This document shows positions 8,185-22,907 of a stretch of DNA of 49,922 bases, in pieces. The translations under genes and the position numbers were made by a program. The stretch's first letter is position 1; each line of letters opens with the position of its first letter. Source of the DNA: Acidobacteriota bacterium (GTDB taxonomy: Bacteria > Acidobacteriota > Thermoanaerobaculia > Gp7-AA8); NCBI GenBank assembly GCA_016184115.1, contig JACPDH010000034.1, forward strand, positions 1 through 49,922. The letters are read 5' to 3'. Below the pieces are notes generated by a model, which saw only the letters and a program-made list of their open reading frames with translations, was not told the DNA's origin and did not search any database.

Positions 8185-10314
8185 CTAAATCGTGCCCCGT
8201 ACTTTCACGTCGTAGCGCAACGTGCGCCACATCCTGACGCGCGTGCCAGCTTTTGTCGCCGGCGTGTACGTGGTTCGCTTCGCTGCGGCGGTGGCGAGCT
8301 CGTCGAAGGCCTCGCTTCCGCTCGACCTGATGAGGCGCGCCATTTCGACGCGCCCGTCAATGCCGACCAGCACGCTGAACATCGCGAAGCCGCGGTTGCC
8401 CATGACGGCCGAGCTTGGAGGCGTGAGCGGCTCGGCTTTCTTCAGCAGCTGCGCGTCGACGACCCCTTCGCCCGGTCCGACGATGTCACCTTCCCTAACC
8501 ACCGGCTCGACCGGCTCCGTGGGAGGCAAAGGAGGCGGTTCAGGCTCGACGGTCGCCGTTGGCACGACGGTCTCGGTGGGCGGCGGCTCTGTCGCCTTCG
8601 GTGGTTTCGGTTGCCGAGGAGTGGCGGGAGGTTTCTGAGGCTCGGTGACCGCCGCGACCGTTGCCGTCGGCGCAACCTCTCGTGCCGTCGAGAGCGTGGT
8701 CGCGGGTGGCGAGTCGGTCGTCGCCGTGGGGGCGATCGTCGTTGTCTCCAGCGTGGCCGTCGGCGCTGGTGTGGCAGTCGTCGTGGCTGCCTCGTCCTTG
8801 GCGGTCCCTGTGAAGCGCTCCAACAGAAGGTAGAAGAGCCAGCCGCCAACGGCGACGACGATGACGAACGCGACCGCGGCGAGCGTGATCAGGAGCCCGC
8901 GGCTCGAAGCTCTTCGCGGGGAGTCGGACGTGCCGCCCTGCGTTTCCGTGGAGGGAGGAGGCGGCGGGGGCGGAGGCGCAATCGCAACTGATGCCGGAAC
9001 CGTCCGCTGCGGAACCGTCGCCCCAATCGGTACCTCAGCGGTCGAAAGTGTCGGCGCACTCGCCGACTGTGAGGCCGCGAGCTGCTCGTTGGATTGCGTT
9101 CGCATCATCAGCTCGTCGAGTCGCTGAACCTCGGTCGGCATCCCGTCGTCGTCGTCGGGAGTCAGCAACCCGGTCGGGGGTGCGGCCGCCTCGCCGGGCT
9201 GCGTCCTGTCGTGCTCGACCATCGCCGCGAGCTGCGCGAACGGGATCTCGTCGGTCGATTCCTTCCGCACCTTTGGTTTCGCGCGCGGGAACGACTCCTC
9301 GGGTGGATTCGTCAGGAACTCGGTGCGGTAGAGCAACTGCGGGATCGCGGCGATCACGTCGTCGAGCGCTCGAAGCGCGTCGCGCGCCGATGCGAAGCGC
9401 TCGCCGCGCTTCGTCTTGAGGAGACGGACGATGAAGGCGTCGAGCTCCGGAGGGACGACGCCCGACACATCGCGATTGACCGTCGTCACCTCTTCCGAGA
9501 TCTGTTTGAGCAGGTAGGCGAGCGGAGTCGCCGCTTCGAAGGGAACCTTCCCGACGATCATCTCGAAGATCACGACACCTAGGGAGTAGAGATCGGTGCG
9601 ATGATCGATCGCTTCGTCGGTCTCCATCATCCGGAGCTGCTCGGGGGAGGCGTAGTGCGGCTTGCCGACGAAGAGCCCCGCGGAGGTGAGTGCCGGCCCT
9701 TCCTGGGCAACGACGTGTTTAGCGATGCCGAGGTCGATGATCCGGGCCTGCATCGTGCCGTCGTGTTGGCAGAGCATGATGTTGTCAGGCGAAATGTCGC
9801 GATGGACGATCCCCTTTTCATGGATCGCGATGAGGCCTGAAAGCACCTGATGCGCGATGTCGACGATCTCGCCGAGCGTGAAGCGGCGTCCGGCTCGCAG
9901 GCTGCGCGAGATCGTGAGGCCGTCGATGAATTCCTCGACCATGTAGTAGGTGCCGTCGGGCAGCGTTGCGAAGTCGTGCAGTAACCCGACATTGGAGTTC
10001 TTGATCGATGCGGCGATCTTCGCTTCCTGGAAGAAGCGCTTGCGCTGTGTGTCGTCGGTGAGCTGGTCGGCGCGCAGGATCTTGATGACCCTGAACTCGG
10101 CGAGATGGATGTGCCGGACCTTGTAGAGCTCCCCCATGCCTCCGCCGGGGAGGCGCTCGAGGACTTCGTAGCGCCCGTCGATGACGTCACCGGGCTGGAA
10201 GCGCGCGGAGGCGGCGCCGCGCGGGCGCGAGCCGAGCGTGATGCCACACTTCGGGCATTGCCGCGCATCGGGCGGTGCCGCGTGGCCGCAACGGCTGCAC
10301 GTGACGATCGACAT
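8185..10314 (-). CDS. Transmembrane Ser/Thr protein kinase with a periplasmic TonB C-terminal domain
   Basis: 709 aa. Domains in order: a four-cysteine zinc ribbon (CSRCG and CPKCG, residues 5-23); a Hanks-type kinase domain (about 38-310) with glycine loop LPGGGMGELY, catalytic Lys in FRVIKIL, catalytic loop HRDISPDNIM and DLG in place of DFG (DLGIAKH), then the YASPEQ activation segment; a cytoplasmic linker with eight consecutive prolines; one transmembrane helix (about 471-498, LLITLAAVAFVIVVAVGGWL); a roughly 110-residue Pro/Thr/Ala-rich periplasmic spacer; and a TonB C-terminal domain (about 630-709) with SVLVGIDGRVEMARLIRSSG and YTPATKAGTRV. The kinase keeps all catalytic residues. The membrane helix lacks the histidine TonB uses to contact ExbB. 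ATG 10314 is chosen for AAGGA upstream. It lies downstream of a TonB-dependent receptor on the same strand. Confidence 0.9.
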   Translation of the reverse strand: MSIVTCSRCGHAAPPDARQCPKCGITLGSRPRGAASARFQPGDVIDGRYEVLERLPGGGMGELYKVRHIHLAEFRVIKILRADQLTDDTQRKRFFQEAKIAASIKNSNVGLLHDFATLPDGTYYMVEEFIDGLTISRSLRAGRRFTLGEIVDIAHQVLSGLIAIHEKGIVHRDISPDNIMLCQHDGTMQARIIDLGIAKHVVAQEGPALTSAGLFVGKPHYASPEQLRMMETDEAIDHRTDLYSLGVVIFEMIVGKVPFEAATPLAYLLKQISEEVTTVNRDVSGVVPPELDAFIVRLLKTKRGERFASARDALRALDDVIAAIPQLLYRTEFLTNPPEESFPRAKPKVRKESTDEIPFAQLAAMVEHDRTQPGEAAAPPTGLLTPDDDDGMPTEVQRLDELMMRTQSNEQLAASQSASAPTLSTAEVPIGATVPQRTVPASVAIAPPPPPPPPSTETQGGTSDSPRRASSRGLLITLAAVAFVIVVAVGGWLFYLLLERFTGTAKDEAATTTATPAPTATLETTTIAPTATTDSPPATTLSTAREVAPTATVAAVTEPQKPPATPRQPKPPKATEPPPTETVVPTATVEPEPPPLPPTEPVEPVVREGDIVGPGEGVVDAQLLKKAEPLTPPSSAVMGNRGFAMFSVLVGIDGRVEMARLIRSSGSEAFDELATAAAKRTTYTPATKAGTRVRMWRTLRYDVKVRGTI

Positions 10315-10424
10315 CAGTCGCTGTTCCTTCGCGCGCTCGCTCTCGCGAATGCGCACCCATGAGCGTTACGAGGACTCTTCTATTCTGGACCTGTTGGCAA
10401 GAAGAGGCCAAGCCTCCCCGCCAA

Positions 10425-12611
10425 TCAGCGCGCGAAGCGGCCTGCGAGGGTAGCTCCGAAGGTGCGACCGGGAGCGAGCGCCGAGATCGAATCGGCCGAT
10501 ACGTAATAGGTGGCGTCGGTGAGGTTCTCTGCCACGAGTCGCAGCTCCAACGCGCCTGTCAGCTGACGCGTGTACGCGATGTCTACGGCCGCGAAACCGT
10601 CGCGGTTGACTTCGGATGGTCCAGGACGAGGGTCGTCATCGAACCAGGAGATCGCTCCAGTGAGCGACGAGGCTCCGCGGCGCCACCGGAGCTCAGCGCG
10701 CGCGTTGGGAGGAGCAATGTCGTCGAGTGCGGTTTTCGCGTCGTCGCGAGTCTCCCCGCGCGACCAGGCGGCGGAGAATCTCGCCGAGAGGCTCGCGCCG
10801 AGCCGGCCCTCAGCCTCGATCTCGATCCCTCGGATTTCCGCCTCACCACGATTGCGGAAAAAGAAACTCGTCCCCTGGCGATAGCGTTCGATCAAGTCGT
10901 CGAGGCGGTAAAGGTATGCGAAGAATGCAACCGACGAGCCGCCGCGCTGCCACCGGGCCGAGCCGTCGAACTGGAGTGTCGTTTCAGGCTCGAGCAGCGG
11001 GTTGCCGGTGACGAATCCGCGTCCTGACGGACCGCGGTAGTAGCGGTCGGAGAGGGTCGGCGCACGGAAGCCGCGGGCAAGTTGGAGCGTCGTGACGAGG
11101 GCATCGCCGGTACGGAGCGTCCAGGCGGCGTGTCCGCTGAAGGCGGAGTCGCGGTCCGAGCGATCGCCGAACGGGCCGCCATCGTTCTTCGCGGAGATCG
11201 TATCGCCTCGGAGTCCCGCGGAGATCCAGGAGCGTGCACCGAGAGGCAGGTCAGCCGACACGAACGCCCCCGCATCGATCCGGTCGGCGCTCTCGATTGC
11301 GACGGAATCGACCGACGAAACGATCGCGCCGTTGGCGTCGAAGACCGCGTCGCGAAGGAGCGCTTCGAGCCCGAGCCGCGCCGCGACGTCGATGCCGGTC
11401 TCGATCCGTGCCGCACCGAGAATGCGGTTGCCGCTTGCACGAACGGCCGCATCCCATGACTCGTTGTCGCTCGAGGAGACCGTTCCGCCGGTCGCCGTTG
11501 GCGAGGTGCGGTCGAGTGTTTGCCGGTAGCGGCCCGCGAAGCCGTTGAGCCGGAACGACGCCCAACCGCGGCTTCCCGGCGCGTCGAGCGCAACCGTCAG
11601 GCGGTCTGAGTCTTCGATCGGATTGATGGTGCGTGCCGGATCGTCGGGCGGCGCAGGGCGCTCGAGGTCGCGCCCACGGTCGATGCCGAGTCCCGCGATG
11701 AGCACCCCGAACGAACCGACGCGCGACGCGCGCGCTGCAACGCCGTAGTCGCGGAACGACGAGCTCTCTACTGTGTTGCCGTCGCCGTCTTGGCCGTCGT
11801 CGCCGTCGCGACCGTGTGCGCCGAAGAGAATGCCGGTGTCGCCCGCACTGAAAGCGATCTCCGTGCCTAACGAGCGAACTTCCTCGCCACCCGTGAGCAC
11901 GCCGACTTCGAAGCGTATCGCGGGATCGGATGCGTTAGGCTCGCGAGAGCGGAGATGGATCACGCCGCCAAGCGCATCGGAGCCATAGGCGACCGATCCC
12001 GGGCCGCGCGCGATCTCGATCGACGCGAGTGTAAAGGGGTTGACGAAGCCGGCTGAGGAGCCGGCGCGGCGCTCCGTCGCCACGCGGGCTCCGTCGAGGA
12101 GCATGAGCGTCCTTCCGCGTGCGAGACCTCGAATCGAAGGAACGCTCGAGGGGCCGCCATCGGATGCGCCGACGCCGGGAATCGTCGCGACGGCGTCGGC
12201 GACGTGGACGGGTGCGAGAGTGGCCAGGTCGGCCGGCGAGAGGGTGTCGGCTGCCGCGGCCGGTGGCGCGTCGATGTGCGCGGCGGCCGCGCCGCTGACC
12301 GTGATCGTCTCCGACGCGGTGACTCCGACGACGATCTCGAGCGGCGCCGAGGGTGTCGCGGCGATTTCGTGCACGCTCGTCGTGCCGCCCGCATCGATGA
12401 CGACGAGTCGCGCCGGATAGCGCGGATCGGGCGTGATCGAGAAATGCCCTGTCGCGTCGGTTCTCACGGAGCGGTTCTCACCGGCGATCGAAACGGTGAC
12501 GTCGGCCGCTGGCGAGGCGTCGTTCCGAAGGATCTGTCCGTCGAGGGCGAGAAGCGCCGGGGAGCCGAGAACCGAGAGGACGAGCGCGAGCGTGGCAGGG
12601 ACTCGAATCAT
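10425..12611 (-). CDS. TonB-dependent outer-membrane receptor
   Basis: 728 aa. The signal peptide ends near LLALDG. An N-terminal carboxypeptidase-regulatory-like beta sandwich (about residues 23-90) and the plug domain follow; the plug contains IPGVGASDGGPSSVPSIRG and LMLLDGARVATERR and ends in SVAYGSDALGGVIHL. The rest is a 22-strand barrel with alternating aromatic strands, ending ...TFGATLAGRFAR. A TonB-box-like stretch may be ETITVSG near residue 100. It would import a siderophore, cobalamin or similar ligand; the ligand cannot be read from sequence. No ABC or ExbBD genes are nearby. The next gene downstream (110 nt) is a kinase ending in a TonB domain. A 177-bp mobile-type repeat lies 15 nt before its start codon. 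Confidence 0.93.
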   Translation of the reverse strand: MIRVPATLALVLSVLGSPALLALDGQILRNDASPAADVTVSIAGENRSVRTDATGHFSITPDPRYPARLVVIDAGGTTSVHEIAATPSAPLEIVVGVTASETITVSGAAAAHIDAPPAAAADTLSPADLATLAPVHVADAVATIPGVGASDGGPSSVPSIRGLARGRTLMLLDGARVATERRAGSSAGFVNPFTLASIEIARGPGSVAYGSDALGGVIHLRSREPNASDPAIRFEVGVLTGGEEVRSLGTEIAFSAGDTGILFGAHGRDGDDGQDGDGNTVESSSFRDYGVAARASRVGSFGVLIAGLGIDRGRDLERPAPPDDPARTINPIEDSDRLTVALDAPGSRGWASFRLNGFAGRYRQTLDRTSPTATGGTVSSSDNESWDAAVRASGNRILGAARIETGIDVAARLGLEALLRDAVFDANGAIVSSVDSVAIESADRIDAGAFVSADLPLGARSWISAGLRGDTISAKNDGGPFGDRSDRDSAFSGHAAWTLRTGDALVTTLQLARGFRAPTLSDRYYRGPSGRGFVTGNPLLEPETTLQFDGSARWQRGGSSVAFFAYLYRLDDLIERYRQGTSFFFRNRGEAEIRGIEIEAEGRLGASLSARFSAAWSRGETRDDAKTALDDIAPPNARAELRWRRGASSLTGAISWFDDDPRPGPSEVNRDGFAAVDIAYTRQLTGALELRLVAENLTDATYYVSADSISALAPGRTFGATLAGRFAR

Positions 12612-20102: not shown

Positions 20103-22907
20103 ATGGCTGGCGCGGAGACTAAGCATCCGGAAACCAAACGACGCAAGAGCTCGGGGAAGGCAAAGTTCCCTCTCGTGCTGCGCTTCTTCCTCGCGACGGG
20201 TCTCGTCATCGCCCTCGTCGTCGCGATCGCCGTGGGCCTGACGATTCGCCGCTCGCATCGAGTCGCGAGGGCAGCGGTCGACAAGGCGATCGCGAACGCG
20301 GGCGCGCTTTACAAAGACGTCGAAGCCGACCGTCTCAAGCTGCTCAGTCTGGGAGCACTCACAGTTGCGCGAAATCCCAACTTCGCGTCTTACATCCAGA
20401 ACGCCGTCGCCGCCGAGCAGTTGGAGGAACCGGTTTCCGAGCCGGCTCCGGATTCGGCCGTGACTTCCGCCGCGGCGGCAGAGGCAGGGGCGGAGGAGCA
20501 ACCCCCGCCTGCGGACACCGATGTAACGTCGATTCTCGATCAGGCCGAGCAGCGTCGCGCGGCGCTCGCGAGCGACCTCATCATCGTGACGAACGACGAA
20601 GGCTACGTGCTCGCGCGGACCGATGTCGGCGCGACGTCGGCAGGGCAGGAGAAGGAAGATCTCTTCGAGTCGATGCCCCTTTTGAAGCAAGCGATCGACT
20701 CGGGTGAAGGGGAGCCCGTCGCGGGCGTGATCGAGACACGCGGAAAGCTCTATCACGCCGCGGTCGTGCCGATCGATGTCGGCGCTGCGCGCGTGATCCA
20801 GGGCTGGTTGATCAACGCGAAGGCGATCGACGAGAAATTCGCGAACAACGTCGCCGGCACGACGCAAACCGGCGTCGCGTTCCTTCCAGCGTCGAAGGAT
20901 GCCGCGGGCACTGCTCCGCGATCGACCAACGCTCCCGCCACCGCAACACTCGGGTCGATGGGCGAGATCTCGACAGTTGTCGCGTCGGGGAAAATGAGCC
21001 CTCCTCACTCCGTACGGATCGATGCAAGTGACTACATCCTCACGGCCGAGCCGCTTCTCGCCGGCCCGAAAGCGCTGGGAGCTGCCGTCTTCGTTCGATC
21101 GCTCGACGCCGAGCTCGCTCCGTTCCGCGAGATCGAGCGCACGCTGCTCTACACGGGTGCGGGCGCGCTTGTCGCGGCGTTTCTCCTCTCGTTCCTCATC
21201 GCGCGTCGCATCACGCGCCCGATCGAAGAGCTCGCCGCGATCGCCGAGCGTGTCACCGACGGCGACCTCTCGGCGCAGCCGAAGGTCGGTGGACGTGACG
21301 AAGTCGGCGTCCTGGCGGGCACGTTCGGCGAGCTGATCGCGGCGCTGCGCGACAAGCATGAGCTCGAGGAGCTGTATGAACAAATGGCGGCGCGCAGCGA
21401 CGTCGAGACGATGCCGGCGCGCCGGAAGCTTCCCGAGACGTCACTTCGGGAGGGAGTCGTCCTCGTCACTGACCTTCGCGGTCTTCCCGTGACGACCCAG
21501 TCTCCCGGGGCCACGGTCGAATTGCTCGACGAGCTCATGACGCTCCAGGAAGGCGAGATCACGCGACAGAATGGCGAGGTCCTCGAGCTCTATGGGCATC
21601 AGATGATCGCGCACTTCCCTGGCGATCGCGGCGCGGTCCGCGCACTCCGTGCGTCGCGAGCAATCAGCGAGCTGCTCGCCGACAGGAGTGACGCGAGTCC
21701 GATCGGATTCGCCGGAGGCATGGCCACCGGCTCGTTCGTCGCGGGCGCGATCCGCTTAGGCGACGACGACACGCTCGCGATCTCGGGAGAGACTCCCGTG
21801 CTTGCCACGCAGCTATCGCTCGAAGCGACGACGGGCTCGGTCCTTGCTTCCGCGGACGCGGCGGAGAAGGCTGGGAAGGAGTTCACGAGCGGCGCCACGG
21901 TCGAGCATCTGCAGCTCCGTCGCACGCACACGCCGGTTCCCGTCCTGCAGCTTCCTCTCGGTGCGATGTCGACCGGGATGATGCAGGCACTCGCAAGCGG
22001 GACGACAGAATCGACGATGCGTATGGATGCGCTCACGGCCGCACAGCGCGCGGTTGGTGTGCCGCGCGACCTCGAGGCGGGCCAGACGTTTGCCTCGCGC
22101 TACAAGATCGAAGGGCTCCTCGGCCGAGGTGGTATGGGCGTCGTGTATCGCGCGACCGACACACAGCTCGACGAAGTTGTCGCGATCAAGACCCTCCCCG
22201 CGAGCGCGATGAACACGTCGTCCGAGGATGTCGAGCGCTTCAAGCGGGAGATTCGCCTGGCACGCAAGATCACGCACCGCAACGTACTTCGAACGTTCGA
22301 TTACGGCGAAGCCGAGGGCTTCTATTTCATCAGCATGGAGTTTGTGAAGGGGTACGCACTCGCCGACATGCTCGAGGAGACCGGGCACCTCGCACCTCGC
22401 GTGGCCCTAGGTGTCGCGCGGCAGATCTGCCGCGGGCTCGAGGCGGCGCACGAGCAGGGGATCATACATCGCGACATCAAGCCGCAGAACGTTCTGATCG
22501 ATCACAAGGGCGAGGTGAAGCTGATGGACTTCGGCATCGCGCGGGCGCAGGAAGCCGATGCGATGACCCAGCAGGGGATGATCGTCGGCACACCTCACTA
22601 CATGAGCCCCGAACAGGTGCAGGGAAAGCCGCTCGATCCGCGCAGCGACGTCTACGCGATGGGCGTGCTGATCTACGAGATGCTCTGCGGCGTTAGGCCG
22701 TTCAACGCCTCGTCGCTGACCGGAGTGCTGACCGCGCACATCACCGAAACGCCGAAGGCGCCGATCACCATCCGTCCAGAGATCGGAGCGGAGTTGAACG
22801 GTGTGGTGCTCCGCTGCCTCGCGAAGGCTCCCGAGAAACGCTTTGCGAGCGCGGGAGGGCTCCTCGAGGCTCTCGACGGCCTCGCGGCGCCGCTGGCTGC
22901 CGCCTAA
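20103..22907 (+). CDS. Receptor Ser/Thr kinase: outer sensor, HAMP, degenerate cyclase-like domain, kinase
   Basis: 934 aa. Order: a basic cytoplasmic start; TM1 (about 23-48); a roughly 300-residue extracytoplasmic sensor that looks Cache-like (IIVTNDEGYVLARTDVG, Ala/Pro-rich insert); TM2 (about 349-371); HAMP (RRITRPIEELAAIAERVTDG); a class III cyclase-like domain (about 450-600); and a C-terminal Hanks kinase (about 660-925). The cyclase-like part keeps one metal aspartate (VTDLRGL) but the second metal site reads LYGHQM, where F-x-G-D is expected, and ISGETPV replaces G-D-x-V-N, so catalysis is unlikely. The kinase is intact: GRGGMGVVY, VAIKTL, HRDIKPQNVL, DFGIA, HYMSPEQ. It is co-transcribed with the cupredoxin 3 nt upstream. 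Confidence 0.9.
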   Translation: MAGAETKHPETKRRKSSGKAKFPLVLRFFLATGLVIALVVAIAVGLTIRRSHRVARAAVDKAIANAGALYKDVEADRLKLLSLGALTVARNPNFASYIQNAVAAEQLEEPVSEPAPDSAVTSAAAAEAGAEEQPPPADTDVTSILDQAEQRRAALASDLIIVTNDEGYVLARTDVGATSAGQEKEDLFESMPLLKQAIDSGEGEPVAGVIETRGKLYHAAVVPIDVGAARVIQGWLINAKAIDEKFANNVAGTTQTGVAFLPASKDAAGTAPRSTNAPATATLGSMGEISTVVASGKMSPPHSVRIDASDYILTAEPLLAGPKALGAAVFVRSLDAELAPFREIERTLLYTGAGALVAAFLLSFLIARRITRPIEELAAIAERVTDGDLSAQPKVGGRDEVGVLAGTFGELIAALRDKHELEELYEQMAARSDVETMPARRKLPETSLREGVVLVTDLRGLPVTTQSPGATVELLDELMTLQEGEITRQNGEVLELYGHQMIAHFPGDRGAVRALRASRAISELLADRSDASPIGFAGGMATGSFVAGAIRLGDDDTLAISGETPVLATQLSLEATTGSVLASADAAEKAGKEFTSGATVEHLQLRRTHTPVPVLQLPLGAMSTGMMQALASGTTESTMRMDALTAAQRAVGVPRDLEAGQTFASRYKIEGLLGRGGMGVVYRATDTQLDEVVAIKTLPASAMNTSSEDVERFKREIRLARKITHRNVLRTFDYGEAEGFYFISMEFVKGYALADMLEETGHLAPRVALGVARQICRGLEAAHEQGIIHRDIKPQNVLIDHKGEVKLMDFGIARAQEADAMTQQGMIVGTPHYMSPEQVQGKPLDPRSDVYAMGVLIYEMLCGVRPFNASSLTGVLTAHITETPKAPITIRPEIGAELNGVVLRCLAKAPEKRFASAGGLLEALDGLAAPLAAA

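Follow-up and report, generated by a model that had tools for sequence, protein, structure and literature searches.

TonB domains are force transmitters that act from the inner membrane outwards, and a kinase that carries such a domain suggests that the same reach could bring information inwards. Four described systems come closest to such an arrangement. In TonB itself, the partner of ExbB and ExbD, a single membrane helix and a Pro-rich spacer precede the C-terminal TonB fold, while in the PASTA-type kinases (PknB/Stk1) a cytoplasmic Hanks-type kinase is joined by one helix to an extracytoplasmic sensor. The FecA-FecR-FecI system signals from the outer membrane to the cytoplasm. The fourth comprises two proteins of the Myxococcus gliding machinery, GltJ (AgmX) and GltG; GltJ begins with a cytoplasmic zinc ribbon, and to our knowledge neither protein contains a kinase domain. 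Each has a single helix and TonB_C motifs in the periplasm (PMC5349195). Our literature search, which covered mainly open papers with strict phrase matching, found no published description of kinase-TonB fusions.

Results

The sequence analyzed here, referred to as the window, is a 49,922-nucleotide stretch of contig JACPDH010000034.1 from an Acidobacteriota bacterium. Its minus strand encodes a 709-amino-acid protein (positions 8185 to 10314; ATG at 10314, stop codon at 8185 to 8187) in which the open reading frame and the Pfam and NCBIfam matches place a zinc ribbon, a Ser/Thr kinase, one membrane helix, a Pro/Thr-rich spacer, and a TonB C-terminal domain (TonB_C) in succession. The N-terminal zinc ribbon (CxxC...CxxC, residues 6 to 23, with Cys 6, 9, 20, and 23; positions 10246 to 10299) scored 24.2 bits against Pfam Zn_Ribbon_1, just short of the cut-off of 25. 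The protein kinase domain (residues 49 to 311; positions 9382 to 10170) was matched by Pfam Pkinase with an E value of 6e-39, and its motifs (GGGMGE at residue 57, RVIK at 75, HRDISPDN at 171, DLG at about 193 to 194, and SPEQ at 223) include the G-loop, VAIK-type Lys, HRD Asp, and DxG Asp of Hanks-type kinases. The usual Lys after HRD is missing from the catalytic loop, as is common among the zinc-ribbon kinases sampled. An initial annotation of this DNA had singled out the zinc ribbon and the DLG as oddities; since DLG occurs in 10 of 24 sampled zinc-ribbon kinases, both features are ordinary in this kinase group. Another membrane Ser/Thr kinase, of 934 amino acids, is encoded elsewhere in the window (positions 20103 to 22907, plus strand) and has a HAMP domain as well as a CHASE4-like match that falls short of the cut-off.

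Hydropathy analysis of the 709-residue protein revealed one hydrophobic segment, a predicted membrane helix at residues ~473 to 496 (positions 8827 to 8898) that contains no histidine. From the helix to residue 631 runs a spacer, predicted to be periplasmic, in which Pro and Thr make up 40% of the residues (positions 8422 to 8826). The TonB_C domain (residues 632 to 701; positions 8212 to 8421) matched Pfam PF03544 with an E value of 1.3e-9 (38.8 bits; cut-off, 24.6) and passed the NCBIfam tonB_Cterm model TIGR01352 (39.9; cut-off, 27.1). An AlphaFold model of the C-terminus, for which 21 related C-termini were aligned, predicted a TonB fold (mean pLDDT, 87.7). The best Foldseek matches of the model were all TonB domains, VIA-align to solved TonB domains gave Z scores of up to 10.8 (2.1 A over 86 residues), and a PDB search with a profile of the 21-sequence alignment returned TonB chains only. 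The kinase-helix-spacer-TonB_C architecture proposed in the initial annotation is borne out by Pfam, NCBIfam, and the AlphaFold model, and the fold of its C-terminus held up. The kinase-TonB fusion is genuine.

Almost every other TonB_C domain that was aligned carries a Tyr-Pro motif ahead of the first helix, a common though not strictly defining feature, but the motif was absent from the window protein and from the two proteins closest to it. The window TonB domain may therefore bind something else, or nothing. Neither feature of an energy-transducing TonB, a transmembrane His or adjacent ExbB/ExbD, was found: the helix has no counterpart of the TonB histidine, and the kinase has no exbB gene nearby, the three ExbB-type genes of the genome being located on contigs C10, C92, and C36. 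Energizing of transport by the window kinase is therefore unlikely, and the earlier view that signaling is the more plausible role is supported.

As previously noted, a TonB-dependent receptor of 728 amino acids is encoded upstream of the kinase on the same strand (positions 10425 to 12611), with Plug (E value, 4e-19) and TonB_dep_Rec barrel (E value, 4e-29) matches above the Pfam cut-offs. Its scores are heme/siderophore/B12-like, all under the family cut-offs. No STN domain was found by Pfam at its N-terminus, where just CarboxypepD_reg-like matches under the cut-off occur. A candidate TonB box, ETITVS (positions 12294 to 12311, minus strand), follows the pattern E-x-[IV]-T-V that is kept in receptor relatives at 68% and 41% identity, alongside which the kinase was not seen. 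The 110-nt gap between the two genes (positions 10315 to 10424, minus strand) holds a short stem-loop after the receptor stop codon and folds no better than shuffled sequences (z, -0.73), so neither a terminator nor cotranscription is indicated. Rfam matches in the window consist of two tRNAs only, with no riboswitch near the receptor. Two TonB genes elsewhere in the genome (C92 and C36) are closely followed by ExbB, and these conventional loci could energize the neighboring receptor.

The initial annotation read the receptor and the kinase as one signaling unit, in which the TonB domain would bind the TonB box of the receptor and occupancy would be converted into phosphorylation in the cytoplasm. 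The shared strand, the 110-nt spacing, and the plausible TonB box are consistent with such a unit, as is the position of other kinase-TonB proteins (class A, below) near receptors and uptake genes. With about 15 Plug-domain matches in the 4.4-Mb genome, we estimate the chance of a Plug gene lying directly upstream at perhaps 0.3 to 1% per gene, or one to a few percent when all four kinase-TonB or pseudokinase-TonB genes of this genome are counted. Against this stand the gap analysis, which gave no evidence of a shared promoter or operon, the loss of the Tyr-Pro motif, and the relatives of both genes.

In the sister species G001, the only other sampled species of the genus, the receptor is present (68 to 69% identical) and accompanied by the same divergent M1 peptidase as in the window, and the other side of the kinase is represented as well, by its BON and M48 genes. 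The receptor side and the M48 side are separate short contigs: the receptor is followed by 185 nt of repeat-like sequence and then the contig end, and the M48 gene by a transglycosylase-associated gene, repeat-like sequence, and again the contig end. A repeat-like inverted sequence (TGTGGCGCAGGC...) occurs at L114 3120 to 3240 and at L150 1 to 290, close to the contig ends on either side of the missing-kinase site. Neither the two junctions nor the rest of this assembly, which is ~90% complete, yielded an orthologue of the window kinase; because the contigs end in repeats, a copy could conceivably sit in the unassembled part. Two more distant receptor relatives (41 to 44% identity) have no adjoining kinase-TonB gene, which brings the count of receptor relatives seen with such a gene to 0 of 3, one of the three contigs ending 185 nt past the receptor. 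An FHA-GAF protein (L133, 3476 to 4444) is convergent to the 41%-identical relative. No receptor was found near either of the two closest zinc-ribbon kinase-TonB relatives. Across the relatives compared, receptor-kinase adjacency was thus not a conserved feature, and on this evidence the pairing may be due to chance. The comparison does not support a specific receptor-kinase unit, and we consider that reading improbable.

To place the window protein among its relatives, kinase-TonB_C proteins were surveyed in 18 genomes of the window's family and fell into three classes. Class A proteins (~900 to 1000 amino acids; L050, L076, L079, L136, and others) consist of a receiver-like domain, a kinase, a helix, and TonB_C (Pfam Response_reg, Pkinase, and TonB_C). 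None of the 13 aligned receivers retains the phosphoacceptor Asp (they read LIVLSSVVP or a variant of it). Among the matches listed, those to class A extend to the end of the model in about 70 of the 149 genomes of the taxonomic class. Class B proteins (~610 to 750 amino acids; L051, L084, L090, and others) combine TonB_C with a degenerate kinase that scores near or below the cut-offs of the kinase models. Class C, with zinc ribbon, kinase, and TonB_C, comprises the window protein, G000:C124, and G001:C58, the last of which has its N-terminus cut by a contig end. These three were the only full-length matches (1448, 1325, and 1100 bits) in 148 genomes of the taxonomic class; the next match there scored 357 bits and covered the N-terminal half only. 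Outside its own species, the sampled genomes yielded no orthologue of the window protein. Named bacterial genomes, a set from which the window's own or very near genomes may be left out, were scanned with the kinase and gave no orthologue, only other kinases at 31 to 35% identity. The kinase-TonB fusion is a recurrent feature of this lineage that takes three forms, of which class A extends across the taxonomic class, and the window protein is a genus-restricted member of this wider set.

The neighborhoods of class A (37 loci, each up to 20 kb) and class B (17 loci) were compared, with counts that are not independent because the loci share ancestry. Class A loci contained BtuF-like genes in 26 of 37 cases, FecCD in 22, and Rho in 14, and ExbB plus ExbD with a TonB gene in 6. 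Oar-type receptors were found at 11 of the 37, confined to the window's family and a sister family. The two other class C loci contained no members of the gene panel; both adjoin a gene for a GH57 glycoside hydrolase, and at C124 an alpha-amylase/CBM48 gene lies on the opposite flank. The expectation that homologues would adjoin receptors therefore held in part, for class A, which lies near receptors and TonB-uptake genes, and failed for the class C relatives of the window protein.

At class B loci, uptake genes of the panel were absent (0 of 17), and pilT (17 of 17) and mltG (16 of 17), that is, pilus and cell wall genes, were nearly constant. This class B association bears on a mechanical or structural role by analogy with GltJ and GltG, in which the TonB domain would fasten the cytoplasmic module to peptidoglycan or the outer membrane, and the kinase would act on envelope or polarity machinery nearby, not on nutrient signals. 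GltG and GltJ share the one helix, a periplasmic helical region, and the TonB_C motifs, and contact with outer membrane proteins has been proposed for them (PMC5349195). One class B protein also gives a weak match, below the cut-off, to the AgmX/PglI tail model. At the window itself, no motility gene adjoins the kinase, and the nearest cell wall genes, a YkuD and an M23 gene, are 2.3 to 4 kb away; the motor-gene search covered the ExbB family. A tether of this kind seems doubtful for the window protein.

A further alternative sees the TonB domain as a decaying remnant of gene duplication, without a partner, in a protein that acts as a kinase only. The lost Tyr-Pro motif, a TonB_C score that is the lowest among the kinase-type proteins of the genome, and the restriction of the protein to its species in the sampled genomes would fit a remnant. 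The domain is nevertheless intact and confidently predicted to fold, and it appears constrained in a pair of class C proteins. Constraint was compared in one orthologous class C pair, C124 and its sister orthologue, the window protein having none in the sampled genomes. The dN/dS was ~0.09 for the kinase, 0.23 for the TonB part, 0.28 and 0.32 for the linkers, and 0.22 for the short helix region. The TonB part of this pair thus appears to be under more constraint than the linkers; with a single pair and near-saturated dS in the linkers, this is a modest sign that the TonB domain is retained for a function. We consider a partnerless remnant very unlikely.

Discussion

Our preferred interpretation, to which we give an even chance, is that the window protein is a single-pass inner membrane Ser/Thr sensor kinase whose TonB-fold domain serves as a periplasmic reader. 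One helix and a flexible spacer rich in Pro and Thr, whose length probably suffices to extend into the periplasm, would connect the cytoplasmic kinase to the TonB-fold domain; this domain would dock on an outer membrane or other envelope partner and thereby alter kinase activity. This is the mechanism that the anatomy of the protein and the neighborhoods of the related classes make most likely. The domain matches, the predicted TonB fold, and the one helix without His point to a sensor, as does the recurrence of the fusion in three forms, with class A located near BtuF, FecCD, Oar-type receptors, and ExbB-ExbD-TonB. The lost Tyr-Pro motif and the catalytic loop without the usual Lys argue against it. 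The neighboring receptor is one unproven candidate partner for the TonB domain.

A broader and rather unlikely extension is that TonB-bearing Ser/Thr kinases throughout the taxonomic class report the state of TonB-dependent uptake or of the outer membrane machinery. Class A would then work with the BtuF/FecCD transporter, ExbBD-TonB, and receptors, and the window protein would be a young variant wired to its neighboring receptor. The class A pseudo-receiver-kinase-TonB protein, which lies beside uptake genes, is better suited to testing than the window protein, since its orthologues are numerous.

Compared with the FecA-FecR-FecI system, the window pair shares a proposed route of signaling from the outer membrane to the cytoplasm; it differs in that the receptor lacks an STN domain and a kinase stands in for the anti-sigma/sigma pair, which was not seen in the neighborhood. 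GltJ and GltG resemble the window kinase in their one helix and periplasmic TonB_C motifs, whereas no Glt-like neighborhood was seen at the window locus. With TonB the window kinase has in common the single membrane helix, the Pro-rich spacer, and the C-terminal TonB fold, but it places a large cytoplasmic kinase before the helix and lacks the helix His, adjacent exbBD, and the Tyr-Pro motif. Like the PASTA-type kinases, it combines a cytoplasmic Hanks-type kinase, one helix, and a putative extracytoplasmic sensor, and the NCBIfam model of that family (NF033483) matches its kinase part at 225 bits, far short of the cut-off of 450. It differs from them in that the sensor would be a TonB domain rather than PASTA repeats.
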